A stretch of 22,215 bases of DNA from a virus: the IMG/VR virus record IMGVR_UViG_3300038326_000445, positions 1 to 22,215 of that record. The stretch is one strand, 5' to 3'. The notes below the pieces were generated by a model that was not told where the DNA came from, searched no databases, and saw only the letters and a program-made list of their open reading frames with translations. Position numbers and translations under genes: made by a program. Within the stretch, counting starts at the first letter, position 1. Each line of letters begins with the position of its first letter. Positions 1-21,912 of this stretch are shown in pieces.

Positions 1-3000
1 GCGGCTGTCAATTCACCTTGCTCTAATTTCAGCTTTTCAAGTAAGTCTAATTGGTTTTGGTAAGTTGAAGAAAGATCTTTTAGATTCTTAAAATCTCTGG
101 TCGATAAAGCTTTAAAATCTACTGTAGCGGCTTCTTCACCTAGGCTGAAACCACTACCTCCTAATGACCGCCCCTTAAACCCTTCTAATATCTCCTTCTG
201 ACGGCCAAGGCGACTTGTAGCGGAAAGACCAAGGAACCCTTTAACTTGGTCCCAAAGATAGCCTATCTTTTCGCTAATCCAAGATCCTTCATCTGTTCCA
301 AACAAGTACAGAGCAAAAGCTCCTACTGCGGTAATTGCAGCAGTTAGTGGGTTACTTACAACAAAAGCAGCAATCATTATGCCAATAAATCCGATCATTC
401 TTACGAGAGCACCTGTCAAAGACTTAAGAAGTTCGCCAAAAGCAGCCCAAGACCTGAAACCAGCAACCACAGCAGCGCTACTAGCTATTGTCACAGCCAA
501 CGCAGCATTAAATAGCCTAATAGGTCCGCTAATAGGCGTCTGTAGAAATGAGAAAGCGGCTGCCAGAGCCGCTGCAGACTTAGCACCAAGACCCTGAGCA
601 ACTAAAAGTTTCTTCATATCTTTATACGTACTGACTAACGCGTCTTTATACGTAAGTACACCATTAGCTGCGGCTAAATAAGCTACTAAGCCGAGCCTAC
701 CAACTACACCAAATGTCCGCCCCATCTTAGCTACAAATTCTTTGGAATACTCTACAACTGCGTCAAACCCTGCTCTAAATTTATCTTCGTTAGTCAATTT
801 ACTGAATAACTCAGCTCTAGCTTTTGACCTAGCCTCTGGAACTAGTACCTTCTTTCCAGACAGAATACCTTCTTTAATTATCTCCCTACTCCGACGAATA
901 ACATCGTCAACCGGTATCTCAATTTCACGAATGCCTCTATTATAAGCACGTACAACGCCTCCAAAATACTGCAACGCTTTACCTGCAGCGTATAAAGTAG
1001 CGAGAGATCCTACCAAATCACCGATAGAGCTGGTAATACGACTCACAGCTGTTCCTGTAAAAGAAGCTTCAGCAGAAGAGAAAATAGACGGAATAAGCGT
1101 TAATGCCGCAATTGACATTAACGGATGGCCTCTAATTGCTCTCAGAATGCTGCCAAGGTATCTTGAAATAATACTACCAACTGCTTCAAGGTTAGCAGTG
1201 AGATTTGATAAGATAGATGTAGGTACAATTTTCTCCAGCCCCCTAGACACCAAAGATTTTAAAGAAGCTATATAGTCTTTAATCTTAGCATATGAGGACC
1301 TCAGTGAAAGCCCTTTTATATCAAAGTCTAAAACATGCGCCCAAAAAGCTCTAAGAGAATCTTTGATTGCGCGTCCACGAGTTTTATAAACCCCAGGACG
1401 AACCTCGGAGTATCCACCAAATAAAGCATCAGAAATTGTGATATTCCCAGCTACATATTCTGTAATATTATTTTGGAGATTTCTAAAAGCTCCAAATAGC
1501 GCAGCGCCAATATCTTTAATTTTATCAACAATTGAACCTTTATCAATTGCGCCTATAGCACTTCCAAAGATATTTTCCATCTCAACAGCAAATTGTACAC
1601 GTAAAGCAGTGATAAGTCGCCCAAGGAAAGATCCTGTAAACTCATTTGCAAACTTAGCGCCTATCTCACGAATCAACTTAGCACCAGCCGCTTTACCAAG
1701 AACCGCAAAGATAGCGAGAGGAATGCCTAAAGCTGCAGCTTCGAAAATACTAATACTGTCAAAGAAAGCTAAAGAAAAAGCCGCCATAGAAGCGATTGCT
1801 AATTTAGGACTAGCAAAAATAGACCTGAAAGCTCTTGCTATCTTTGACCTACCATTAAGCTGAAAGACTTCACTAAAATAATCAGTAAAACCTTCCGCAA
1901 CTTTCTTGCCGTCTTTACTTTTGCCAAAAATTGCTTTTTTAATAGCTTTACCAGCTTTCTTAGATTTAAAAGCAATTAAGCTTAGACCTGCTAGCGCTGC
2001 AAGAAATGCTTTATTATCAGGAACAAGCATAGCAAATATTTCACCAGGAGCACCGAAGGCAGAAAGGAAAGCATCTACAGCACTTGGTAAAGAGGAAATG
2101 ACCAAGTTAATACCATTGAGCATTTCCTTGAGAAGAATATCAACCACGAATCCAGTAAACTTAGCGACTCCTGCAGTTACTGATTGTTCAGCTGTTTTTA
2201 AATCCACATCTATTGCTGAGGCAATCATGCTGAAGATAGACAAGCCTACGCCAAGTTTACTAATACCGCTCAGCGAACTGAAAGTATATATAGATAAGAC
2301 TATCTGAGTCAAGCCTTCAATTAAACCACGCCCAATAGATGACCAATCAAATTTAGTAAAACTGTCACCAATATTCTTTCCAAGATCTTTGAGTGAGGTA
2401 ACTGCGCGGTCTATTTTCGAAGGGAGGTTCTTGAAAGCGTTCTCTACTAATCCTGTAAACGCGCTAATCGGTGAAGCGTCAAGACGGCCCGAATGATCCA
2501 TCACACCATCAATCAAGTCAGGCCAATATGAGTGCCCGACTACTTTATCATAAGCTGAATAGAAAGCGTCAGACACTTTTTCTGTGAATTTTGAAATCTT
2601 ACTAACAACGCTAGGTAGTATATTCCCAGCCTTTTCTTTCACTTTCTGAAAAAGCGCAACAATATATTCTACTGTTTTTGACAAGGTCTCCAGCAAAGGC
2701 TGCAAGTTCAAGACTTCATATAACCTACTAGAAAATGCTCCAACAAAACCTGATAGTGTGGCGTAAATACTAGATAACGCCTTTTTAAACGAAGCTGTAA
2801 CTTTCTTTTGGTCTAGCGTAAGAGTAAACTCAAAGTCTTTAGTAGAGAATCCTTTTATGGAATTAAGCGCGAAAGCAGCGCCGTCAAAAATTCCATCTGC
2901 CATCCGTTGGCCAAGGCTCTTTGAAAAGAGGTCACTTACAGCATCAAAAATTGCAGACAAAATAAGATATAATGTATTTTTAACACGGTGCGCAAAGGGC

Positions 3001-4829
3001 TCTAGTACTGGTGCAAGTACATCTTGATACAGTCTAGTAATAGTGTTACGTAAGACTTCAATCCCTGCCGATACGCGGTCAAATCTAAAACCGGCAATAG
3101 ATAGCAATCTGTTGTCAATAAAGCCTAGGCTAGCTAAGAAATTTCGTCCTACAGAGAGCACGGAAATCATACTTGCTCGGATGTCGCCTAGTGTGACTGC
3201 CCAGTCCCAGTAGCGGCCTCTAGCTAGCTGAGTATTCACTTCTCCTAAGTTCTCAGAAAAATCTTCAAGGGAAGTGGAAGTAAATAGGTTAGCCCAAGCT
3301 CTCTCAATATTTTTACCAGGCTGCAGAAAGTTGATTCTATCTACAATACTTTCAATAAAGTATAAACTAGGGCGAAGTGTCTGAAAAATAGCGGCATCAA
3401 TCTTCTTCAATGTATGAGTAATCTTGGCGAAGACACTAGCTACCAACGAGACTACAGGTGTGTAGACGACAGTGAACAAATTAGCGACTTTACTTGCTAA
3501 AATACTGACCATTGTTACAACTTGAGCAGCAATCTTTCCTAAAGACTTAATATCATCGATAAAAGTAGGCTCTATTTTTACTTGGCCGAATGCCATATTT
3601 TTAGACAATTTCTGGAAACTAAAGCCGGTGACCTCTGCTTCTCCTTTCAAGAGACCGAACGCTTCTTTCAGAGCTTCTAACCCAAAATAAGCGTCCCAAA
3701 TAGCGGGGACCGAGTCCCACACTCTTGCGGCAAAAGCAAATTGTTCAAATACATCTTTACCCACTGTTACAGCTTTCCACGCTTGTCCTAGTGTACTTAA
3801 TGAACGAAGTGAGTCTTTAGCAAGCCTAGCATTCTCCTTCAGCAGGATAGCCTGCATCGCCATAGCGTTCCCAAACCTTTCAGCGCCGTCTGCAATTTCA
3901 ATTAGGAACTTAGCGAAATTAGGTGCCGCGTCAATCATCAGATTAAATCCGCCAACAGCAGTCTTAAATGCCATTTTCATGCGATTAGAGGCTTGTTCTA
4001 CTGTGTATGCAGTTCCGCCAAAGTCTCTGTCTACACTCTTTTTAGCTTCTTTAAAGATATCTACCAACAGTGGCACCGAAAATTTACCCGCTTCGGCAAA
4101 CTTATAAATTTCACCAGCTGTCATATTAAGCTGACGTTGCAGCTCAAAGGCAAAGTACTTGTTCTGCTCCATCACAGAGCGCAACTCTTGGCCTCTTAGT
4201 TCACCAGACGACAGACCTTGGGTGAACTGCACGGTAGCCGCCTTAAGCGACTCTGCAGTGCTTCCTGATACCGCGCCCATCTTCTGGTAAGTTTCAGTGA
4301 TCTCAAGGATTTCTTTTTTACTAATTGCTAAATTATTAGCCTCAAGTGCTTTAGAGAAGTCTACAAAGATATCAGTAGTAGTAGCGAAATCTGTGCGAGA
4401 GTCTCTGGCAATCTTATACAAAGATTCTAGATTGGTATTTATTTCTTTCATATCCTTAGATACGAGAGACAATCTGTTTGAAAGTCTTGTCAAGTCGTCA
4501 GCGGCTCTGTGAAAAACACTTACGCTCTTAAGAGCTGCAAAAGCTGTTCCTGCTAACAATACTGCATTACGTAGACCTGTAAAAGACTTTGTCGCCTTAT
4601 TGGTGGATTTAGCAATATCAGTGTTAGCTTTAACAGAACTTCGTTTAAAACTATCTATATCCTTTTTAGTCTTTCCTAAATCACCTGTCTTTCCAATCTT
4701 AATACTCTTAAGATTTGCAGAAGTGATTTTAGAACTTTTTATCATGTCTGCTAACTTCTTATTCAGAGCTTCAAGATCAGCTCTGGCAGACTTAGTATTA
4801 GCCTCTACCGGTATAACGATTCCAGACAT
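1..4829 (-). CDS. Tape measure protein (3' end outside window)
   Basis: This is an open frame of at least 1609 codons; I found no stop in the stretches I read at both ends and in the middle. The ATG follows a good ribosome binding site (AAGGA, 7 nt before the start). Tape measure proteins set tail length and fill the tail tube before DNA ejection. The N-terminal part fits the phage tape-measure N-terminal domain family, with a characteristic stretch around residues 205-225 containing GELRGQELRSVMEQ. The rest is long, Lys/Ala/Phe-rich and helical-looking with hydrophobic patches, as usual for this family. It lies directly downstream of the tail chaperones and the gp10-like protein, the standard siphovirus position. 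The C-terminus lies beyond base 1, so full length is unknown. Its size predicts a long tail. The family assignment is firm. Confidence 0.93.
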   Translation of the reverse strand, partial: MSGIVIPVEANTKSARADLEALNKKLADMIKSSKITSANLKSIKIGKTGDLGKTKKDIDSFKRSSVKANTDIAKSTNKATKSFTGLRNAVLLAGTAFAALKSVSVFHRAADDLTRLSNRLSLVSKDMKEINTNLESLYKIARDSRTDFATTTDIFVDFSKALEANNLAISKKEILEITETYQKMGAVSGSTAESLKAATVQFTQGLSSGELRGQELRSVMEQNKYFAFELQRQLNMTAGEIYKFAEAGKFSVPLLVDIFKEAKKSVDRDFGGTAYTVEQASNRMKMAFKTAVGGFNLMIDAAPNFAKFLIEIADGAERFGNAMAMQAILLKENARLAKDSLRSLSTLGQAWKAVTVGKDVFEQFAFAARVWDSVPAIWDAYFGLEALKEAFGLLKGEAEVTGFSFQKLSKNMAFGQVKIEPTFIDDIKSLGKIAAQVVTMVSILASKVANLFTVVYTPVVSLVASVFAKITHTLKKIDAAIFQTLRPSLYFIESIVDRINFLQPGKNIERAWANLFTSTSLEDFSENLGEVNTQLARGRYWDWAVTLGDIRASMISVLSVGRNFLASLGFIDNRLLSIAGFRFDRVSAGIEVLRNTITRLYQDVLAPVLEPFAHRVKNTLYLILSAIFDAVSDLFSKSLGQRMADGIFDGAAFALNSIKGFSTKDFEFTLTLDQKKVTASFKKALSSIYATLSGFVGAFSSRLYEVLNLQPLLETLSKTVEYIVALFQKVKEKAGNILPSVVSKISKFTEKVSDAFYSAYDKVVGHSYWPDLIDGVMDHSGRLDASPISAFTGLVENAFKNLPSKIDRAVTSLKDLGKNIGDSFTKFDWSSIGRGLIEGLTQIVLSIYTFSSLSGISKLGVGLSIFSMIASAIDVDLKTAEQSVTAGVAKFTGFVVDILLKEMLNGINLVISSLPSAVDAFLSAFGAPGEIFAMLVPDNKAFLAALAGLSLIAFKSKKAGKAIKKAIFGKSKDGKKVAEGFTDYFSEVFQLNGRSKIARAFRSIFASPKLAIASMAAFSLAFFDSISIFEAAALGIPLAIFAVLGKAAGAKLIREIGAKFANEFTGSFLGRLITALRVQFAVEMENIFGSAIGAIDKGSIVDKIKDIGAALFGAFRNLQNNITEYVAGNITISDALFGGYSEVRPGVYKTRGRAIKDSLRAFWAHVLDFDIKGLSLRSSYAKIKDYIASLKSLVSRGLEKIVPTSILSNLTANLEAVGSIISRYLGSILRAIRGHPLMSIAALTLIPSIFSSAEASFTGTAVSRITSSIGDLVGSLATLYAAGKALQYFGGVVRAYNRGIREIEIPVDDVIRRSREIIKEGILSGKKVLVPEARSKARAELFSKLTNEDKFRAGFDAVVEYSKEFVAKMGRTFGVVGRLGLVAYLAAANGVLTYKDALVSTYKDMKKLLVAQGLGAKSAAALAAAFSFLQTPISGPIRLFNAALAVTIASSAAVVAGFRSWAAFGELLKSLTGALVRMIGFIGIMIAAFVVSNPLTAAITAVGAFALYLFGTDEGSWISEKIGYLWDQVKGFLGLSATSRLGRQKEILEGFKGRSLGGSGFSLGEEAATVDFKALSTRDFKNLKDLSSTYQNQLDLLEKLKLEQGELTA

Positions 4830-7971: not shown

Positions 7972-9174
7972 TTAGCCGTGGAAAATCGGCAGAATTCCCA
8001 AGCTTAGAGCAGAAGTAAACTTCCGATCAAATGTTCCAGTGGTGGAGGCTAGAGTTCCAGATCCAACAGAAGTCAGCGCTTTAGCTGTGCCGCCCTCTAC
8101 CGCATACTGGTACTTAACATCACTTGGGAACTCATCTTCAGAACCTATCCAGCTGTAGCCAGCAGGCAGAAGAATGTAACCCCAACGAGACCAGATCTCA
8201 GTAGTGCCGCCACCTTGGTAAGCAGAAGCATCACGGTCGATTTCAGTAGGAACTGGGACATTCAGAGGCTCCATTGCAACCGCTCCAGGAGCAACAATAA
8301 AGGAGATCTTAGTGCCGCCAATATCAACACCAGCACCGGTGTTAAGCTTGGTCATCTCTGCAGCAGAGAGGCTCTGGGTAGCACGAGTACTGATCAAACG
8401 GAACTTACCATCAAAGATAGTCTGGAAATCAACGTTACCATCACGCACACGATCTTGATCAACCAGGTTCGCGGAGCGGAAAGAAGCCATCATTGATGGA
8501 GAAGTGATCAGATAGTAATATGGAAGTTCATAATCCTTCCAACCTTTTCCGAGAGCCTGCAAGAAAGCTTCTGCACGTTGAGCACCCTGCTCCATAGAAG
8601 CTTTAGTGTTATCATATGCAAGAATAGGCTTAATACTAGCGCCTAGATCTACATAGAAGCCGTACTTACTGTCAGTCGGATCATTCTCGAAAGTCTGACC
8701 ACCAAGACCGGTAGCGCCAGAACCTGCTGCAGCGCCGTTAATAGCCTCAGAGATGGCGACACCCTTAAGCACAGACAACAGAGCATTATGCTCATCTTGT
8801 GCACGAGTCTCACCAAAGTCACGGCCAATCTTAGCCAGACCATCACGCTGAGTAACAACTTCTTTCATGTTAACCTTCTCTGCACCATGAGTACGGACAG
8901 TTTTAACATAACGAAGGTAGTCAGTTGAAGTGGTAGTCTTAGTACCATCAGAATTGTCAGTCAAAGAAGCGACATTAATTGCTGGATTCAGAGGTTTATC
9001 CCAACGAACCTGACCAATGAAGGTCTCAGTATTACGGTCAATCTTCTCATTAGTTCCTACGATACCAGTGCCGGAGAGTTTCCGAGCATTGGTATATGCC
9101 TCATCAGAATAAGCTGAAATAGCTTCCTGAAGGACTTCATTAGTGGCACCTGCCACATCGGTACGTACGCCCAT
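7972..9174 (-). CDS. Major capsid protein
   Basis: A 400-aa protein of the right size and position (after the scaffold, before the connector) for an HK97-fold shell subunit. AAAGGG lies about 9 nt before the ATG. Helical N-terminal segments are followed by FIGQVRWDKPLNPAINV, a central Gly/Ala-rich domain, a SPSMMASFRSANLVDQDRV segment and a beta-rich end containing RWGYILLPAGYSW. It is the most evenly codon-adapted gene here and is relatively GC-rich, as expected of a highly expressed virion protein. I recognise the type but not a specific subfamily. The scaffold is separate, so no cleaved N-terminal scaffold domain is expected. Confidence 0.88.
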   Translation of the reverse strand: MGVRTDVAGATNEVLQEAISAYSDEAYTNARKLSGTGIVGTNEKIDRNTETFIGQVRWDKPLNPAINVASLTDNSDGTKTTTSTDYLRYVKTVRTHGAEKVNMKEVVTQRDGLAKIGRDFGETRAQDEHNALLSVLKGVAISEAINGAAAGSGATGLGGQTFENDPTDSKYGFYVDLGASIKPILAYDNTKASMEQGAQRAEAFLQALGKGWKDYELPYYYLITSPSMMASFRSANLVDQDRVRDGNVDFQTIFDGKFRLISTRATQSLSAAEMTKLNTGAGVDIGGTKISFIVAPGAVAMEPLNVPVPTEIDRDASAYQGGGTTEIWSRWGYILLPAGYSWIGSEDEFPSDVKYQYAVEGGTAKALTSVGSGTLASTTGTFDRKFTSALSLGILPIFHG

Positions 9175-9201: not shown

Positions 9202-9942
9202 CTATTCTTGCTGTGTTCGTAAAGAACCTTCAGCAGCCTTTTGTATTACTTCATCCTGAGACATCTCAAATAATGATTTAGGAGTATCGGATGCAGAATT
9301 ACCGGATGGTACTGTAGCATCACCAGGCCCATTATTCTCTTTAGGTTTCATTAAGAAAGAATTAGCCTCATTTGAAGCAAAACTAGCTACAAAGTCATTA
9401 AGATTGGAACCGTCTTTAGGGGTCCAACTACCATTTTCGTCCTGATGAAGATCGCCGACAACTTCTGAAAAAGCCATCTCTTTAGCTTTATCGTTTCGAA
9501 ATTCAACAGCACCTAAAGCGTCTTTAACTGAGATATCTCGCGTCAATGTAACATTGTTTGACTCAAGAACTTTATTTTTTGCTTCAAGTTCAGCAATCTG
9601 AAGCTTTAAAGCTTCCTCGACTTTGCCTTCATCTTGCAAACGCTTTAGCTCTGCGTCTTTGTCGGACTGATCTCGTTCAGCCAACTTCTCCAGAGCTTGG
9701 TCTCTAGATGCGTAAGCTGCATCTAGTTTCGTCTTAATAGGTGTTAATTTTGCTTCTACGGCAGCTGCAATCTGGGCTTCGATATCCGCAAGTGGGGTAC
9801 TGTCAGAGTTGTCGCTGTCGCTATTTCCATCTATACTATCTGTATTATCATCCGCCATTTTGTTCGTTTCCTTGAGCACAGCTCTTGGTGAAGTCACAGA
9901 CTTCGTTCTTAAATATCCCTCACGGGTTAACTTAACAGTCAT
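9202..9942 (-). CDS. Capsid scaffolding protein
   Basis: A highly acidic, helical protein of 246 aa from the ATG at 9942, or about 218 aa from the ATG at 9858 (MADDNTDS). It contains an Asp/Ser-rich segment, then a long coiled coil rich in Ala, Glu, Lys and Leu (roughly residues 60-150), then a Gly/Pro/Ser linker and a charged C-terminal tail. These are standard features of internal scaffolds that template the procapsid and leave or are degraded. It directly precedes the major capsid gene. Both starts have plausible ribosome binding sites (AAGG about 9 nt before 9942; AAGGA 10 nt before the shorter start). The leader MTVKLTREGYLRTKSV is basic and unlike the rest, so the shorter start is a real alternative. 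Confidence 0.8.
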   Translation of the reverse strand: MTVKLTREGYLRTKSVTSPRAVLKETNKMADDNTDSIDGNSDSDNSDSTPLADIEAQIAAAVEAKLTPIKTKLDAAYASRDQALEKLAERDQSDKDAELKRLQDEGKVEEALKLQIAELEAKNKVLESNNVTLTRDISVKDALGAVEFRNDKAKEMAFSEVVGDLHQDENGSWTPKDGSNLNDFVASFASNEANSFLMKPKENNGPGDATVPSGNSASDTPKSLFEMSQDEVIQKAAEGSLRTQQE

Positions 9943-10022
9943 TTTCAGGCACCTTAAAGAAGGAAAAATTTTCCGGCGCTTATATACGTAAGATAACTGT
10001 TGACGCGAAACTGTTAGATTAA

Positions 10023-10120
10023 CCCATAAATTATCATTTATGTTTATGGGCCAGGCTATTTAATTCCGTAGCCTTTCTGCGGAATTTCCGCGCCCATTTC
10101 ACATTTCAACAATTATGGGC
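10023..10120 (-). promoter_or_regulatory. Structured leader with competing hairpins between polymerase and scaffold genes
   Basis: The gap of about 170 nt after the polymerase exon holds several inverted repeats: AATTCCG/CGGAATT (10062-10068 with 10080-10086), CCCATAAA/TTTATGGG (10023-10030 with 10043-10050), and ATGGGC/GCCCAT combinations (10046-10051, 10092-10097, 10115-10120). Some are mutually exclusive, and the first element overlaps the polymerase stop codon. This suggests an attenuator-like or processing element controlling the capsid genes. I see no clear sigma70 promoter. Confidence 0.45.
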
Positions 10121-11523
10121 CAATCCCATACCATCCACGCCTGTTATCAAACTTCTCGTCTATCTGTTCTAAAATATCTTCTCTTGAGAGAATATCAGCA
10201 TCAGTTAGTAAACGACCGTTCACTCTGGACTTACCTACTACAGGTATCAGCCCAATCTCAATCGCTTCAGCAAGGTACTTATCATAAAGCTCCTTTGGCA
10301 AGCCTCTCTTCCGCATTTCATCTAATGTAATCTTAATCGAATTCTTATCCAAAGCATTGGCATACGCTTGTTTTAGCGCACGCTTAGCTTCCAACATGTC
10401 TCCAATATTAGTAAAAAACGCATCATGGATCGTAGATGTAGCCACGCCATTTTCAGCACCCCAAATATGAAAACGCTTAACAATTACTGCATCTGAAGAG
10501 TGGTTTCCATTTACTGCAAAGGCAGTTCTGGCTTTTGTTACATCAGCAATATCATTAATTTTTCCATCTTTATTTATGGCTTGTTCCCACCAAGAAGCTT
10601 CAGTCTTTTGAGGGACTTGCACCATATTAGTGATCCAATTACCATCTTTATCCTTGTACTTTAAACGCTCTTCAAATTGCTGAGTAAAATTCTGCTCAAT
10701 AATTTTTCCATCAAAGTTCGCCCAAGGTACATTAGTCCAAGACTTAGGTAGCTTATTAGCTTTCAATATCTCTATATCAGGAATCAGTGTAACATCTTTT
10801 CCTAAAGCCTTACGTTTCCATGACGGCCAAAACATAGGCACATCAACCCCAAGAAACTTAGCACCTGTACGTCTATGGGCAGGTGTATCAGCGCCGTAGA
10901 TAAGCTCATGTAAACTTCTTGGAGTACCTAAAGCTTTTAAGAACTTTTCTGATACGGCCTCGCCTGATTTAATGCCAAGGATTTCACTAACTCTGTCTGG
11001 CAGAACATAGCCACGTTTCTTGTCACCTAGGATTTTACCTTTAGCAACACTCTTCCAATCAAAAGCAGCGGTCGAAGGTTTAGCATTCTCAAGAAAGTCT
11101 TGGGCAAGTCGCCCGAAGAACTTTGTAAAATCTTTCAAAATAGGTACTTGAATAGCAAGGTGGTCACTCATAATGTTTGCAATTTTCTTAAAATCATTAG
11201 GTGTAATCACTCTAGCGTAGCTACCAGAAAGCTTGTCTACAAAATCCTTAGTTTTAGCATCAAGAAAATATAGTTGCTCTAAGATGTCTTGACCAGGATT
11301 TAAGCCCTTATCAAAGATATCCTTCACATTCTTCCTTAAAAGCATCAATTCATTATAAGTGTCAGGATCTAGCTTTTTATAACGTGCAGCTCTTGCAGAA
11401 ATCTCAGACAATACTGTATCCCGATCTGAAGCTTTCACTACAAGTGTCCCTTCCGCTCTTCCAAGAATCTTAGACAATTTAGTCTCAACATTCATAATGC
11501 CTGTACGCTCACCTGCACCATAG
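10113..11523 (-). CDS. MuF-RNA polymerase fusion, exon 2 (motif B end and motif C)
   Basis: This is the second exon of the split gene. Splicing at 12425/11523 restores the frame, adding residues 1076-1545. It opens with YGAGERTG, the second half of T7-type motif B; the Tyr (spliced residue 1077) corresponds to T7 Tyr639. Further on, STIHDAFFTNIGDM holds motif C, with His1442-Asp1443 corresponding to T7 His811-Asp812, the second metal-binding Asp. The interval from motif B Tyr to motif C Asp is about 366 residues against 173 in T7, so there is a large insertion. An unspliced reading could start at ATG 11495 (460 aa), but that ATG has no ribosome binding site and would cut motif B. The C-terminus ends in GWYGIGP, echoing residues 129-134 of exon 1. 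Confidence 0.85.
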
Positions 11524-12424
11524 CTCTTACATTTTCAACAGGGCGTTAGTCTGTCAAGAGGAAAGATATGAATAGCCAGAATCACCTCGTTTGAGTCTCT
11601 TCGAAATTGTGGAATGATGTATTTCATACGCCTTCCCAGCTGCCCTGACCGAGGGGAAAACGCCAAGAGGGGTTTGAACCCCTTTTCTCAAATGCTTTCC
11701 GTGGCCTGAAGCTTCTTCTCCGATGATCTTCTCATCTAGGTGATAATAGCCTTTATGTAATACACTCTTACTTTTTGCTTTCTTCGAGATTATAGCTTTG
11801 CTAACCTTATGGGCTGTAGCTGCCTCAGCAACTGTATCAAAATCTCCTAATGGAGTATGGACAGGTCGAGCTCTTGGTGAGTTTCTGCCTGTAACAGCCT
11901 TTCTAGCAATTTCGTATAATTTGGGTGTAAGTTTTATACCTTCTCTTGTACACATGGTTGCAAATGCGATATTTAATTTCGGCTCATCGAACATATTTTT
12001 TAAAAACCAGTGTGCTAGTAGATGGCATCTTGGTGTCAAGTATATAAGATTCGACGCTTCGTTGCCCCCACCTACGCACTTAGGAATGATGTGATGCCTT
12101 TCAGCATATTCAATAGGCTTGCTTTCATAACCATATTTTTCAAGAAGAGCGATATAGTGCTTTTCATAATTCATTTATAAATTTCCTTCCTGCATATTCC
12201 TATACAGAGTAGATCATATCATGTGTCGACACCTTTTCAGGATTGTACACTCCCGCGCTTCGAAGTCACTAGACTCCTACAAGCTTCATCTCCTCAATTG
12301 AGGCGGTATGCTTTGATCGTTGCACCTTCCAAGGCTTCACAGCCGAGGCTTGGCTCAGGATTGTCCGTTCTGGAGTTCCCCTGAATTCACGGGATTTATT
12401 AAGGTGACGTCCTATGTTTGGTTA
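11524..12424 (-). ncRNA. Group I self-splicing intron (901 nt) with internal HNH ORF
   Basis: The intron interrupts polymerase motif B. The exon end GTGACGTT (12432-12425) pairs with GACGTCAC (12411-12404), giving seven Watson-Crick pairs plus the U.G pair at the splice site (P1). CATAG (12416-12412), just before it, pairs with exon 2 CTATG (P10). The last intron base is G (11524). A core resembling T4 td (GGGGAAC ... GGACAATCC TGAG, about 12384-12353) gives the P4/P5/P6 joining region. Splicing removes the TAG at 12412-12414 and keeps one 1546-codon frame. I did not fully fold P3, P7 and P8. The HNH gene lies near the 3' end and presumably makes the intron mobile. Confidence 0.9.
11554..12174 (-). 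CDS. HNH homing endonuclease inside the intron
   Basis: A 206-aa protein starting after AAGGA (9 nt before ATG). The HNH nuclease domain is at residues 22-60: ERHHIIPKCVGGG (His27, His28), then SNLIYLT (Asn42), then CHLLAH (His51, His55). Two similar C-terminal modules follow: VHTPLGDFDTVAEAA...SKAIISKK (about 105-135) and VQTPLGVFPSVRAAG...HSTISKR (about 166-195). These look like NUMOD-type DNA-binding repeats, each with a helix-turn-helix-like end. Such enzymes cut intronless alleles and copy the intron into them. The likely target here is the uninterrupted motif B region of related polymerase genes. The ORF lies entirely within the intron and is translated separately from the host gene. 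Confidence 0.92.
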   Translation of the reverse strand: MNYEKHYIALLEKYGYESKPIEYAERHHIIPKCVGGGNEASNLIYLTPRCHLLAHWFLKNMFDEPKLNIAFATMCTREGIKLTPKLYEIARKAVTGRNSPRARPVHTPLGDFDTVAEAATAHKVSKAIISKKAKSKSVLHKGYYHLDEKIIGEEASGHGKHLRKGVQTPLGVFPSVRAAGKAYEIHHSTISKRLKRGDSGYSYLSS

Positions 12425-15400
12425 AACGTCACCATGTTCTGCGCTTTAGCGGCTTTCCTCAAATCCTTCTCAGTCAGATTAAACTTCTTATTCATTTCCC
12501 TAAAACGAGGGTCATTATAAGTCTCAGCAGCAATCTCATCATACAATCTACGCTTTTGCTGCGTAGGCACTACATTAGACATTGCAGCAAGCTGCTTATT
12601 TCGAGTAGTCAATGCAATAATCTGAGCACCTGACGATGATGCGTCTTGTTCTAAAGCAAGACCAGTGTAGTAATTATCAAGGTGGCTAAGCTTACGGTAG
12701 TTACCTTTTAGGAATATATCAATCTTTGCTTGCTCAATAGCTAACCTAAAAAACTTTCCAAGCTCTTCTCCCTCAATTCTTCCTGCTAACGGACTCTCAA
12801 GAATTTTGCGTATGTCGTTTGGCTTCCCTCTGAGTGCCAAGGTTCCAATCCTGACAAGATCTTCCCGCCATCTCTCAGCGATCTTTTGCCTTCCAGGAAA
12901 TGTAAGTGAATCGAATCGGCCTTCAAAGTAGTCATCCAATCCACCCAAGAAAGCACCAATGGTGTCTTGTAGATTTTGGTATCCATCTTTTCCAAGAGGC
13001 ATCTCCTTTGCTGTGTTTAAGAAAGGTCTGAAAGTCTCTCCTGCTTGAGGTCCGATAAATCCACGCTCATAGACGCGCCCTCGATGATCAATAAAAGCAT
13101 TATTACTAAAAGCAGAATCGTTAGACCTAAGCCACTGCATAGTTTTGAAGCGTTCATAAGAGTCATCACGACCAGCAATATAATGCTTATATTCGTTAAG
13201 ATCATCATAATACTTAGCCTTGCCTTTGTCGTCTTTGAAGTACAGAAGCTTTGTGACGAAGTCATGGTAATCACCGTCCACTTTATATTTTGACTTAGAT
13301 GCCCAGTTAAGAGCCTGAGTAAGATCTTTGTCTACAAATTCCTCGGGGAAATCTGAGAACGATGAAGTTGAAGTAATAGGGATTCGCGTATCTGTATACA
13401 CTCCTCTATCACTTTTGATAAAGTAGGTTTTGTAACCTTCTCTGAAGAGTAGTCGTTGACCCGCCCCTGTGTAGGGGATCCGTAAGCCAATATCAATCTT
13501 TCGTTGCAGCTTTGAATATTTTTGAATTCTTTTATCAGTTACCCTAATATTTTGTGAGAATGTGTCATAGTAAGGACCAAACAACTGACCTGACATACGA
13601 GATTTCATTCTGCGTTTTTGAACACCAAAAGTCTCTAACTTGAAAAATGAGTTATTCTTTTCTAGAATCTTATTGCCAAGATTAAACCACTGGTTTCTAC
13701 TACCATTAAGATTAGCTAGATTAAATAAATCCCGTCCAAGCGCAACAGCGAACTGATCCTTATCAGGTGTATCCGCTAAAGACAATCTATGTGAAAATCT
13801 TAGATAGAACTGCTGAATATCGCTCTTAGCCAGCCTTAATTTAATTTTAGGCGGTATTGACAAGTCAAAGGCTTCACGAAGCTTTCTAGCCAGCTTAGGA
13901 GCAGTACTATCTTCCCACTTATTTCTAGCTACGATATTATCTATCAAGCTGTCATGTAATGAATCCAGCTGAGTAGCTCCTAAAACAGGATCAATATAGG
14001 ATTCATCCAATAACTTTCTCAACGTATTACCTTTTGAACGTAGACGAGTCTCAAGTGAATCAGAGATATTCATGACATCAAATTTTATTTGTGCCTGAGA
14101 GACTGCTTTAAAATTTTGCCAAATCTTTCCTTCTTTTCTGAATCTAGAAAATGTAATTCTTAAGTTGTCCACAATAACAGCAATTTCATTTGCTGACATT
14201 TTATTCTCTAGCGACTTCGCAAAACCCTCTATAAACTCTCTATCTTTTAACTTAAGAGTATCGCTTTCGTGTACAAGCCGGAGATTATTACTAAGCACAG
14301 CAGGTTCAGGGAGATAACGACGAGAATCCTCATAACGTCCACTAATTGGATTGAAGATAAGCTGATCTTCTCTCGGGGGTGCTGAGAGAACACGTCTACG
14401 ATTATTTCGCTTTGAGCCAATAGTGATGCCCCTAAAATTAGTAAGAGAGAGTGTTCCGTCGAGTTCGCCAGCTTGAAGAAGGTAGTACTCTCTAAGGTCT
14501 GTAGTGAGAGATGCGTCACCAATAAAATCGTCAGGAGTACTAGCCCATAATTTAAGCTTGTCTAGTTTCTCTTTAGCCAAGGCAAATCGTCTTGTATCTC
14601 CTGGAACTGTATATTCGGCATCAGTTAACCTCCGAAGATCTCGTAGACCAATAGAATTACCATCGTTGTTAGTAAATTTACTAAGATGTAGTTTTCCGGC
14701 CTGAAATAGCGTGACTCGTCCCATGTCTCCAAGATGCCTATACTGCACTTCCGAAGTTTGTCTAAGAAGCCATTCATGGTATGATTCCTTTAACGGCAAT
14801 TGCCCATCATAAAACTGTACTTGCTTAGGGGTCAGCTTACCTAAGTTCCTTTTGCGGATTTGATCGATTCCTTCAAGTTTCGATAGGTCGTCCCAGGACT
14901 TAACAACAGGTGTAGTGGTAGAACGGCAATTATAATGAGCAGGAGGAAGAAATTCTGTTTCATCCATTCTATAAATTTCTCCATCACGGTGTGAACATAT
15001 TGGTGTGGTACGGCTGTCTAGAACTGCCACGTATTGCCAGCCTTGCAACGCTTGGCTATTCGCCTGATACACGGCATGGTCAGCTTGAGCAAACACAGAG
15101 GTGGTCGCTGTAACAACCAAAGCCCTTGACTGGTTTCTGGTTATTTTATGGGTATTTCCACGTCTGACATCTACTGCTATTACGTCAAGACTTTTACCAT
15201 CAGCTAGACCTTTACGTATAACTTGCTCAAGTCTTTTACGCTCACCTAGCCCAATACCATACCAACCTGGCTCCAATAATTTGTTTTCTATTAAAGGCTT
15301 TGAAAGAACCAACTCTTCAGCAACTCTCTGCTGAGGGCGTCTAGTTCTCCAAACATCTTTCAAAGAAGCGTCTAGATTCTGATAAGCGAATGAGATTTGA

Positions 15401-15651
15401 TCTTTCGCTAAACCTATAAGTGAATCTTTACTTGTACGGTAAGCCTCTTTCATAGTTTTCGAAATCTCTTTATCTAAAAGCCTATGTAACTGCTTCACAT
15501 TTTTAGCTTTTGATATAAGACTATCAACTCGAATTCTATGCTCGCCAAGTACTAATTCTACTTTTTCATTTATCCTTCTTTCAAAGAGCCTAACCATCGC
15601 TGCTCGATCAATGACTTTGTCATATATCAGCGTGTTAGCATTCTTTATCAT
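12425..15651 (-). CDS. MuF minor head protein fused to T7-type RNA polymerase, exon 1
   Basis: The ATG follows AAGGA. Spliced residues 1-1076. The N-terminal part is an SPP1 gp7/Mu F head-morphogenesis domain: RALVVTATTSVFAQADHAVY, then VAVLDSRTTPICSHRDGEIY (Cys219), then PPAHYNCRS (His239, Cys242). The C-terminal part is a single-subunit RNA polymerase. IDHRGRVYERG holds the DxxGR motif (Asp855; T7 DWRGRVY), followed by PQ..., AKEMPLGKDGY (T7 AKGKPIGKEGY). LEQDASSSGAQ is palm motif A (Asp1003; T7 Asp537). LRKAAKAQNMVTF starts motif B with Arg1065 and Lys1069 (T7 Arg627, Lys631). Residues about 260-800 are unassigned, perhaps the polymerase N-terminal domain. Without splicing the frame ends in TAG at 12412, inside motif B. 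MuF proteins bind the portal inside the head, so the polymerase is probably packaged. Confidence 0.9.
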
Positions 15652-15740: not shown

Positions 15741-15793
15741 AAACTTTTACAAACTACTAAACTTTTACAAACTACTAAACTTTTACAAACTAC
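15733..15793. repeat. Three perfect 18-bp tandem repeats plus a partial fourth
   Basis: The unit AAACTACTAAACTTTTAC occurs at 15733-15750, 15751-15768 and 15769-15786, followed by AAACTAC. It starts inside the 3' end of the portal gene (the TAG at 15790-15792 lies in the partial copy) and ends inside the terminator stem. Each copy carries the sequence that forms half of the stem arm, so the repeats offer alternative partners for it. Confidence 0.9.
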
Positions 15794-17349
15794 GCATCAC
15801 TAAAATTGTCAGCGTAACTAGAATTACTTTCCGCTAATTTTGTTACAATTTCGTCACTATTAATTGATGCCCTACCCTCTTCATCATCATAATCATAAGG
15901 CACTAGGTCATTCTGTCTAGCAAGTAACAGCCAGACCTCTCTAGGGAGTAGACCGGCCTCATACCATTCAGTAACTAGACGTAACCATTCATGGCCAATA
16001 GGCGCGGGGTTAAAGTCTGAAGATAGCGTAAAAGTTACATCATCTTCGTCAAGACCTTTATCGTAACGCCAGTTAATCATAAATACAATTACTTTTCGCA
16101 ATGTGTTAGATATCTTAGTGTTTAATGTGCCTAGCTGTGCTGTCTGCGCTGCATTTCGGATTTCTAGTGCAACACCTGACTGTGCTGTTTCCGGTGTAAG
16201 CATCCTAATGCCAAGCTTGGCCATCTCTTCAATACCTGCAGCAATAGCTCTATCCATGTCGGCGAGTGCAGCCGTAGGCGTGTCAAGCACAGAGATCTTA
16301 TCATCTGGATCGATTTTTAGCCAAGATCCAAGACCAGCACTTACAATATCTTCAAATCTTTCGTCTGTCATATCTGAAGCTAGTACAGGTGTAAATGTAG
16401 ATGCGCCATACAAAAGGTGATTACGTCTACTTAATTTGTTGTATAGGTTAACTTCCTTATTCACAATTGTAGTGATAAAGGGGTCTTTAGGATCGATTGA
16501 CCCATCTAGCGGCCATGCCGGAATCATACCTAGACGTTTACCATTCATTATGATGTTTGTAACTGTCTCTACTAACTCCATAAGTGGGCCATCAGCCTTA
16601 TCGATGCCGCGCCCATTAACAACTTCTTTAGTATCTTTTTCGGGCTTTTCAAAGACTCTTATCTGATAAGCGCCATTAACTAGCTCGTGAACCCATACAC
16701 GTTCTTTAAATGAAGGGTGGAACTCATTATCAGAAAAGTCTTCGACAGTTCCTCTGACAATAATTTGAGACAATACAGAGTTACCAAAAGAGTCTTTGTC
16801 AGTCTTCCAATTAATTATCGTTTCAGCTTTATGTAATGAGGGATACGGTGCATGCTTTTGAAAGTCTTCAGTAGTATACGTTTTACGAACTTCTTCATTA
16901 ATACTCGGGTAATTTACGAATACCCACGAATGCCCCGTTTGCATTTCCTCTGGCAAAGCCTCATCCAGAAATGATACAAGAGAATTATTATTTTGCGTAA
17001 AGTTGTTAATGATCCAATTACTAATACCTGTACTAGTATCTTCAGGCAGTTCTAAGTTAGGGACTTTGCGTAATAAGCCACCTGTAAGCATTTTAACAAA
17101 CTCAGAAGATATGCCAGGTAACTCAGCTTCCGCTTTATAAAACTTATATTGCAGAATAGTCATCGAAGGCGAGAATGGTATCAATAGATTTGTGTAATTA
17201 GTAAAATCTAAGGTAGCATCAAAAGCCTTAGTCTGCTGCTCCCCGCTGCAGATCGCCCTGTTACGATCCCAAATGTTTCTAAGAGACTCACAAGCAGCAT
17301 TCGGAGAAGCTACAGTCTTAGTGGTTTTTCCGGAGGAAACAACAGACAT
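15790..17349 (-). CDS. Portal protein (DUF4055-type)
   Basis: A 519-aa protein with a strong AAGGAG ribosome binding site. It fits the DUF4055 portal-like family. Evidence includes the N-terminal segment NLLIPFSPSMTILQYKFYKA, a central KEVNLYNKLSRRNHLLYGAS, and a C-terminal part with LGIRMLTPETAQSGVALEIR followed by a long helix (about residues 395-430), corresponding to the portal stem/crown region. The dodecameric portal is the DNA entry and exit channel and the docking site for MuF-type proteins. Its location just before the MuF-polymerase gene is the standard portal-MuF order. The end is acidic (DYDDEEGRASINSDE). No terminase is seen in the window. Confidence 0.87.
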   Translation of the reverse strand: MSVVSSGKTTKTVASPNAACESLRNIWDRNRAICSGEQQTKAFDATLDFTNYTNLLIPFSPSMTILQYKFYKAEAELPGISSEFVKMLTGGLLRKVPNLELPEDTSTGISNWIINNFTQNNNSLVSFLDEALPEEMQTGHSWVFVNYPSINEEVRKTYTTEDFQKHAPYPSLHKAETIINWKTDKDSFGNSVLSQIIVRGTVEDFSDNEFHPSFKERVWVHELVNGAYQIRVFEKPEKDTKEVVNGRGIDKADGPLMELVETVTNIIMNGKRLGMIPAWPLDGSIDPKDPFITTIVNKEVNLYNKLSRRNHLLYGASTFTPVLASDMTDERFEDIVSAGLGSWLKIDPDDKISVLDTPTAALADMDRAIAAGIEEMAKLGIRMLTPETAQSGVALEIRNAAQTAQLGTLNTKISNTLRKVIVFMINWRYDKGLDEDDVTFTLSSDFNPAPIGHEWLRLVTEWYEAGLLPREVWLLLARQNDLVPYDYDDEEGRASINSDEIVTKLAESNSSYADNFSDA

Positions 17350-18710: not shown

Positions 18711-18961
18711 TATTCGCACCTCGCTTCTGCTAATTCTACATTCAATTTAAGAATCTCATGCATCTTACCTTGCTCAATATGCAGACCCTCAATAGTCGCT
18801 TCTAAGCCGCTAGCCGTAGCTTGTAACACACCGACTCTCTCCAGAAGTTCTTTATTATTTGTTTCGCTCTCGTAAGCATAGTAGCCTAATGCCACAGGTA
18901 AAATTATATAAATTACTAAGGGATTTTTAATCCATGCATCGAGAATCTTTGCAAAATCCAT
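18710..18961 (-). CDS. One-TM coiled-coil membrane protein (possible lysis accessory)
   Basis: An 83-aa protein whose ATG overlaps the endolysin stop by one base (TAATG). An N-terminal membrane segment (about residues 13-30, LVIYIILPVALGYYAYES) is followed by a helical coiled-coil tail (about 38-80). The layout resembles an inner-membrane spanin or a small anchored lysis protein, but no outer-membrane lipoprotein partner with a lipobox is embedded or adjacent. Function is inferred from position. Confidence 0.65.
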   Translation of the reverse strand: MDFAKILDAWIKNPLVIYIILPVALGYYAYESETNNKELLERVGVLQATASGLEATIEGLHIEQGKMHEILKLNVELAEARCE

Positions 18962-19422
18962 TACTTATATCTCTCATAAGCTCTTAAACACTCTTCAACC
19001 GTACCTTTCCCACTAGACGTATTATAATGCTTTTTCCAGTATCCTGCTAGACCTTCAGGATCAGAAGCCTTAGGTAGCGGCTCAGAAACACGCCAATAAT
19101 GTAAACGCGCCATGGCTGTAGCATACGCAAAATTACCAAGTAGCTGCGTCTCTGGTGTACTGCTAGGTAGCATGAAATCTTTAAGAATTAAAATTAGTGA
19201 TTTTTTACGACTTAAATAATTCTTCCAAATATCATCATGGGTAGCTGGCTCCATTTGGTAGAGACCTAATGCTGGACCTTGCATTTGTTTCAGCCAATGC
19301 CCCATATGAGACTCTTGCGCAGCAGTCATCACAAGAAGCTCTACAGCCGCATCACTGTGCATATCTAGCTGCTTTAGTCCAGGTATAATGAACTCTTCTC
19401 TTAGAATCTTTACAGGAATCAT
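18961..19422 (-). CDS. Endolysin, lytic transglycosylase-like
   Basis: A 153-aa protein with AAGGA 9 nt before ATG. It has the lysozyme-superfamily/SLT pattern: MTAAQESHMGHW with a likely catalytic Glu37, then ALGLYQMEPATHDDIW (like GLxQIxP, about residues 52-65), and a helical C-terminal half including NFAYATAMARLHYWR and LAGYWKKHYN. The expected role is peptidoglycan cleavage at the end of infection. It has no signal peptide, so it should depend on a holin, which is encoded just downstream. The exact enzyme class is inferred from motif layout. Confidence 0.75.
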   Translation of the reverse strand: MIPVKILREEFIIPGLKQLDMHSDAAVELLVMTAAQESHMGHWLKQMQGPALGLYQMEPATHDDIWKNYLSRKKSLILILKDFMLPSSTPETQLLGNFAYATAMARLHYWRVSEPLPKASDPEGLAGYWKKHYNTSSGKGTVEECLRAYERYK

Positions 19423-21528: not shown

Positions 21529-21912
21529 TTACATAAGTATTAAAAGACCTGCAATCAAAGTAAGAGCAGTAGAGATAATGCGATAGCCCGACCGATTATG
21601 TATAGATTCCTCACGAAGATCACCAGCAAATTTACGTGCATCTATCTCGTAAGGGTTACTCCAGTAGCCGTAGCGTAAGGAGTACGCATAGTACTTAGCA
21701 CTCCATATAAAACGACCTTCAGTCCGTTGCTGTAGAACATGGCCATACTCATGCGCAAGAAGCATGGCATTACGCTGATACTTTGCTCGCACATAAACCT
21801 GACCAAAGGAAGTGATATAACCGCCGAACTTACGAAATTCTAAGAATTTATCAAATAGGCTATTTTCAGGTATTACATAAAATGTAGCATCTTTATATTT
21901 CATCTCTCGCAT
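21529..21912 (-). CDS. HExxH zinc metallopeptidase-like protein with C-terminal TM
   Basis: A 127-aa protein. LLAHEYGHVLQQR contains the zinc-binding HExxH (His54, Glu55, His58), and NPYEIDARKFA supplies a likely third ligand, Glu89, about 31 residues on. A C-terminal hydrophobic segment (about 110-126, ISTALTLIAGLLILM) would anchor it in a membrane. The start at 21912 has GGAG 11 nt upstream; a second ATG lies at 21903. It resembles small DUF4157-like phage and bacterial proteins, whose substrates are not known. A truncated relative lies immediately upstream in the window. Confidence 0.72.
   Translation of the reverse strand: MREMKYKDATFYVIPENSLFDKFLEFRKFGGYITSFGQVYVRAKYQRNAMLLAHEYGHVLQQRTEGRFIWSAKYYAYSLRYGYWSNPYEIDARKFAGDLREESIHNRSGYRIISTALTLIAGLLILM

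Follow-up and report, generated by a model that had tools for sequence, protein, structure and literature searches.

The window analyzed here is IMG/VR record IMGVR_UViG_3300038326_000445, a 22,215-base stretch of viral DNA, and our subject is a spliced gene on its minus strand, MuF-RNAP. The gene product is supported, by sequence comparison and a structural model, as a MuF/SPP1-gp7 minor head module followed by a helical linker and a complete single-subunit RNA polymerase (RNAP) of the T7 type. The basis for this identity is the profile matches, the fold comparison and the conservation of catalytic residues across many relatives. We consider it likely that the gene encodes a virion RNA polymerase, anchored through its MuF module, packaged, ejected with the DNA and used to transcribe the first phage genes. 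Thus the phage probably brings its own transcription enzyme into the cell with its DNA. Packaging, ejection or injection, early transcription and promoter use are steps that we infer, with good motivation.

Domains and predicted fold

The gene and the elements within it are as follows.

12425-15651, minus strand: exon 1 of the MuF-RNAP gene, residues 1-1075 plus two bases of codon 1076
14617-15651, minus strand: MuF minor-head module, about residues 1-345, with the PF04233 core at residues 141-246 and C219, H239 and C242
12425-13959, minus strand: polymerase part within exon 1, from about residue 565, with the N-terminal domain, DxxGR (D855), motif A (D1003) and motif B (R1065, K1069)
11524-12424, minus strand: group I intron of 901 nt, ribozyme core at about 12434-12190 (RF00028), with P1 U.G and P10
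11554-12174, minus strand: intron-borne HNH homing endonuclease with NUMOD1 (phrog_655 E 7.8e-29; PF01844 E 8.6e-6)
10113-11523, minus strand: exon 2, with Y1077, a PW..FDGK motif, motif C (H1442, D1443) and a C-terminal foot ending WYGIGP (PF00940 E 5.4e-5)

The original prediction, made from the letters and their reading frames, had described one 1545-residue spliced frame in which an SPP1 gp7/Mu F domain precedes T7-type polymerase signatures in the right order. Profile searches of the window and its relatives bore out both halves. Exon 1 matched Phage_Mu_F (PF04233) at E 7.9e-14 (52.8 bits, gathering cut-off 29.6) and the head morphogenesis family phrog_241 at E 1.3e-57; PF04233 also matched all three family members scanned, and Cys219, His239 and Cys242 of the MuF module are invariant among relatives. 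RNA_pol (PF00940) and phrog_414 matched the end of exon 1 together with exon 2. On its own exon 2 reached 22.6 bits against PF00940, for which the cut-off is 22, and the same profile matched three of three spliced or intron-free members, with a best E of 7.7e-11. When a profile of the family was compared with the PDB sequences, T7 RNAP was the top match (E 9.5e-9), and the alignment spanned DxxGR, motif A, the T7 WVTPDG region and motif C.

The catalytic residues follow the same register. T7 residues D421, R425, D537, K631, Y639, H811 and D812 align to identical residues of the family, and DxxGR, the motif A Asp, the motif B Lys and Tyr and the motif C His-Asp occur in order and are invariant save for the Gly of DxxGR. 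D855, R859, D1003, K1069 and Y1077 were found in 83 of 83 sequences, so that the Asp, Lys and Tyr, whose loss in close relatives would have spoken against the prediction, are never lost; H1442 and D1443 were found in all 80 complete ones. Every residue that had been named (C219, H239, C242, D855, D1003, R1065, K1069, Y1077, H1442 and D1443) lies at the number given for it. Only the motif B arginine held in part: the window clade retains R1065 (T7 R627), whereas the marine DSS3 clade has Ala at that position.

The polymerase part is under purifying selection and evolves more slowly than MuF, with a median omega of 0.15 for the former and 0.20 for the latter at synonymous divergence (dS) near saturation. 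If the polymerase part were catalytically dead, it could serve only as a structural or DNA-binding domain, and an identity to T7 RNAP of only about 19% might be taken to favor this. We regard a dead polymerase as very improbable, since every catalytic residue is invariant and the polymerase part is the slower-evolving one.

A predicted structure agrees with the assignment. Residues 348-1539 of L114, an intron-free relative that stands in for the window protein at 62% identity, were modeled with AlphaFold2 (pLDDT 79, pTM 0.74), and the start of the polymerase at about residue 565 was transferred from this model. The top Foldseek matches of the model were all single-subunit RNAPs (best E 2.4e-17). 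VIA-align superposed it on T7 RNAP with a Z of 29.7 and 3.8 Å over 529 residues, spanning T7 residues 38-883, and on the N4 virion RNAP (vRNAP) with a Z of 19.7. The predicted fold is thus that of a polymerase, as had been anticipated.

Splicing of the MuF-RNAP gene

Unspliced, the window offers a frame of 1079 residues (15651-12412) and another of 460 (11495-10113), with the HNH/NUMOD1 frame (12174-11554) between them. Joining exon 1 (15651-12425) to exon 2 (11523-10113) in silico yielded the anticipated frame of 1545 residues without a stop. The interval first assigned to the fusion, 10113-15651, does hold the fused gene, but it also contains the intron and its endonuclease.

The junction was placed by the P1 U.G pair, P10, the Rfam group I match and the uninterrupted relatives. 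The 5' exon terminates ...AACATGGTGACGTT at 12425, and in P1 GGUGACGUU pairs with intron GACGUCACC and the preceding G, with a U.G pair at the cut. The last base of the intron is a G at 11524, and in P10 the guide CAUAG pairs with 3' exon CUAUG. The 5' U.G pair, the terminal G and the P10 of group I introns are therefore all present (12425/12424, 11524/11523). RF00028 scored 40.4 bits (E 1.6e-8) at 12434-12190 of the window, which is under the gathering score of 50, and 66-97 bits on introns of relatives at the same site or neighboring ones. Approximately 80 relatives read across the junction, unbroken, as NMVTFYGAG or close variants. In the window phage, synthesis of MuF-RNAP would require splicing of the group I intron, whose site falls between the Lys and the Tyr of motif B.

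Because the window requires an intron to join two frames, an assembly chimera or a wrong splice might be suspected. This explanation is scarcely credible and is refuted by the intron-free relatives: the same join occurs in 78 full-length uninterrupted frames from many metagenomes and in two cultured phages.

The MuF-RNAP gene is a target of several group I introns (L130, L132, L134, L135, L136, L001 and the window), all inserted near polymerase motifs. Their sites fall at residues 1074/1075 (EBPR siphovirus 1, L130, L135, L136), 1076/1077 (window) and 874/875 (L134), and the L132 gene carries two introns. Three relatives (L133, L135, L136) also contain an in-frame insert of roughly 100-150 residues at about residues 983-1130, just before motif A. 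The insert matched no intein family, leaving an intein reading unsupported, and its only matches were to uncharacterized phage families (phrog_5043 E 2.8e-9).

Genomic setting and the second polymerase

Nearly all genes of the window lie on the minus strand in head-to-tail order: portal, MuF-RNAP, scaffold, major capsid, head-tail adaptor, tail proteins and tape measure. The order in DSS3_VP1 is portal, MuF-RNAP, capsid. In both, the MuF-RNAP gene adjoins the portal gene and lies upstream of capsid, and in the window also of scaffold, which is the placement of a MuF minor head protein. The tape measure protein indicates a long tail.

15790-17349, minus strand: portal protein (DUF4055), directly upstream of MuF-RNAP (phrog_145 E 2.3e-50; PF13264 E 6.2e-8)
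9202-9942, minus strand: scaffold protein, downstream of MuF-RNAP (phrog_206 E 3.7e-9)
7972-9174, minus strand: major capsid protein (phrog_247 E 3.9e-20)
3-4829, minus strand: tail tape measure protein, cut by the window end (PF20155 E 8.3e-39)
10010-10024, no strand assigned: tentative variant of the clade's intergenic near-palindrome, CCCCGTTAAATTAACCC, just past the MuF-RNAP stop

Two further window proteins were observed. One of 127 residues (21529-21912) carries a zincin-like HEYGH motif, with a weak eCIS_core match (E 0.0026) and a match to phrog_37302 (E 9.5e-14). Another, of 153 residues (18961-19422), belongs to phrog_3108 (E 1.3e-39), a family of unknown function, and resembles phage muramidase in sequence; together with neighboring small membrane proteins it perhaps forms a lysis cassette.

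Relatives of the fused protein are encoded by at least 557 IMG/VR contigs, found among 600 candidate stretches. A second scan, which recovered the window's own clade, gave about 20 uninterrupted frames of roughly 1,500-1,580 residues that share 47-64% identity with the spliced protein. Among 50,697 named phage records the fusion was found only in EBPR siphovirus 1 and in the cultured roseophages DSS3_VP1 and DSS3_PM1, the latter two being among the intron-free relatives in which it is a single uninterrupted frame. These records label it 'head morphogenesis', 'minor head protein-like protein', 'head protein' or 'hypothetical protein', so that only the head half is named. Other named records matched by the polymerase part alone are RNA polymerases, where informatively annotated. 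The related Pelagibacter phage Aegir encodes a 633-residue MuF protein without a polymerase, plus a separate RNAP.

A scan of 84,980 genomes for prophage carriage returned one metagenome-assembled genome only, Gammaproteobacteria 8_1_Jan_SF_Bin17, with a phage-like contig and a short second contig (L140, L141). The 74,179-base contig is a phage of the MuF-RNAP group, equal in size to IMG/VR genome G011, and its presence in that bin is likely a binning mistake. A gene of the dCMP-deaminase family is present in DSS3_VP1 and G015 and was not found in G011-G014, G016 or EBPR siphovirus 1; this patchy occurrence gives no sign that uracil-DNA is a condition for the fusion.

A second, stand-alone polymerase is encoded by most of these phages. 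A canonical T7-like RNAP with a frame of about 700-930 residues occurs in all six near-complete genomes of the window clade and in six of the nine DSS3-clade records searched (gp080 in DSS3_VP1), as expected for the pair of virion and non-virion polymerases known from N4 and P23-45. In a phylogenetic tree, MuF-fused and stand-alone polymerases fell into separate clades, the former with support 100, and each clade divides into the same two phage groups, a pattern that fits long co-inheritance. MuF-RNAP as a recent duplicate of the stand-alone enzyme was not supported, given its own clade and a mean identity between the two kinds of only 16.5%, at which long branches make deep placement unreliable. 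The stand-alone RNAP of G013 (L148, 40438-42273) has a 926-residue frame with a gap inside its PF00940 match, which suggests an insert in that polymerase also.

Phage polymerases are expected to have recurrent sites. A directional motif, sense AACCCCGTTAAATTAACCC, occurs in four window-clade genomes (G011, G012, G014, G016; L162-L176) in 2-5 copies each, nearly always intergenic. Each of the four has a copy immediately past the stop of MuF-RNAP and another that precedes the stand-alone RNAP gene by a few kb. Copies scored 25-37 compared with 18 or less in shuffled sequence, and EBPR siphovirus 1 has weaker copies. The motif is a candidate phage promoter or operator. The tentative window variant, CCCCGTTAAATTAACCC, scored 17.1 on the position weight matrix against a shuffled maximum of 11.9; it is oriented opposite to the copies of relatives and is weak within the window itself. 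DSS3_VP1 has a different repeated element, CTAATAGGTTACGTTAAAGAGGGGGAG (L002, 4161 and 26149), with its core in three copies and then a hairpin, and this element resembles a T7-type promoter (TAATA...GGG).

Proposed virion polymerase and known systems

We propose that the protein is anchored at the portal, in the capsid interior, by its N-terminal MuF module, and that the helical linker connects this module to an apparently competent T7-type RNAP making up the C-terminal two thirds. Several copies would be packaged in the head and ejected along with the DNA. In the cell, the fused polymerase would transcribe the first phage genes, among them that of the stand-alone T7-like RNAP, which would then take over. 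The case for packaging and injection is strengthened by the position in the head cassette, by the Aegir MuF protein that lacks a polymerase and by the stand-alone RNAP of relatives. Most of these phages encode a second RNAP besides the fusion of a MuF anchor with a T7-type polymerase, and the simplest reading of that fusion is a virion polymerase that initiates infection.

Alternatively, the polymerase might act late in the producing cell, tethered through MuF to the portal, and couple transcription to packaging or late expression, with copies in the head as a by-product. The location of the gene between portal and scaffold in a late head cassette would suit such a role, as would a second RNAP available for other stages. 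T7 RNAP is known to participate in concatemer processing and packaging. However, MuF-type proteins are virion components whose fusions have been proposed to deliver effectors into the host (PMC5512222), and the known fusions of an RNAP to a structural protein, in N4 and P23-45, work at entry. We thus judge a late role unlikely.

It is less probable still, and indeed rather improbable, that a protease frees the polymerase from MuF to act as an ordinary RNAP in the infected cell. Processing of head proteins is common in other phages, and a helical linker does separate MuF from the polymerase fold. Yet the scanned proteins included no recognisable protease encoded beside the gene, a free polymerase is already provided by the stand-alone RNAP, and relatives retain the fusion.

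Several points weigh against a virion polymerase. Virion presence, injection and enzymatic activity are each something that we infer. A protein of about 1545 residues would need unfolding to pass a long tail, for which the N4 vRNAP and the P23-45 tape measure-RNAP fusion are precedents. The second RNAP is known from relatives; of the window's genome only 22 kb are covered, and the record of EBPR siphovirus 1 is partial at 54 kb. The MuF half gave no Foldseek match to solved structures at E ≤0.001, although its assignment from sequence is unaffected. Finally, the motifs may be read by either polymerase, fused or stand-alone, or may be operators.

The closest known proteins are end-to-end homologues. 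Gp108 of DSS3_VP1 and DSS3_PM1 (Naomviridae), recorded as 'head morphogenesis' or 'minor head protein-like protein', likewise comprises MuF and RNAP, follows the portal and is accompanied by the separate RNAP gp080. It differs in lacking an intron, in its 33% identity to the window protein and in a polymerase half left unnamed in the records. In EBPR siphovirus 1 the same protein, with 56.5% identity over exon 1, is split by an intron with an HNH endonuclease (gp47/gp48/gp49); there the intron lies 6 nt upstream of the window site, and the parts are annotated as head protein, HNH endonuclease and hypothetical protein. T7 RNAP shares the fold and active site but, besides its low identity, is a free enzyme that is not packaged.

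The virion RNA polymerase is a class already known, to which a MuF-T7-type design would be an added variant. To our knowledge few designs of virion polymerase have been described, and T7-type ones in virions come essentially only from N4-like phages. Literature searches for MuF with a virion RNAP, which did not extend to the original DSS3_VP1 description, returned no report of such a fusion, in keeping with the original statement that none was well described. MuF proteins belong to the head structure, and their fusions, among the polyvalent proteins of Iyer et al. 2017, similarly couple MuF with an enzyme for which delivery into the host has been suggested (PMC5512222). In contrast to the present case, the partners described there include RNase, 2H phosphoesterase and RelA/SpoT domains, and that survey found N4-like virion RNAP only in N4-like phages and without MuF (PMC5512222).

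If correct, our proposal explains how transcription can start without host RNAP, freeing the first genes from host machinery, and suggests MuF as a general carrier of large enzymes into bacteria. A phage group common in the environment would join the known carriers of virion polymerases, its likely packaging signal being a small head domain that is already well known, and annotations that end at 'head morphogenesis' would be corrected. The cultured pair of Ruegeria pomeroyi DSS-3 and DSS3_VP1 makes the idea directly testable.

Phage N4 packages a single-subunit RNAP and ejects it, and its early genes are transcribed despite rifampicin (PMC12633501). N4 gp50 (Schitoviridae), as proposed here for MuF-RNAP, carries such an enzyme within a giant virion protein, and later genes are left to another RNAP of the phage (PMC12633501, PMC4496689). 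Gp50 uses other packaging domains and no MuF, however, and is structurally farther from MuF-RNAP than T7 RNAP is (by the Z scores above). The N4-type architecture of about 3500 residues, with a central RNAP and a large C-terminal packaging region, is not matched by a 1545-residue protein with MuF at its N terminus and a polymerase that runs to the C terminus. In Thermus phage P23-45, an RNAP is fused to the tape measure protein (gp96) and the non-virion RNAP gp64 serves later genes (PMC10770324). This parallels a polymerase joined to a structural virion protein, but gp96 is a two-barrel RNAP of the cellular type, neither T7-like nor linked to MuF. It is fairly likely that a globally common family of long-tailed phages delivers a T7-type RNAP as the C-terminal part of a portal-bound MuF head protein. 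This would be a third type of virion polymerase, distinct from N4 gp50 and from the tape-measure polymerase of P23-45, and a cascade of two polymerases would begin from the head.

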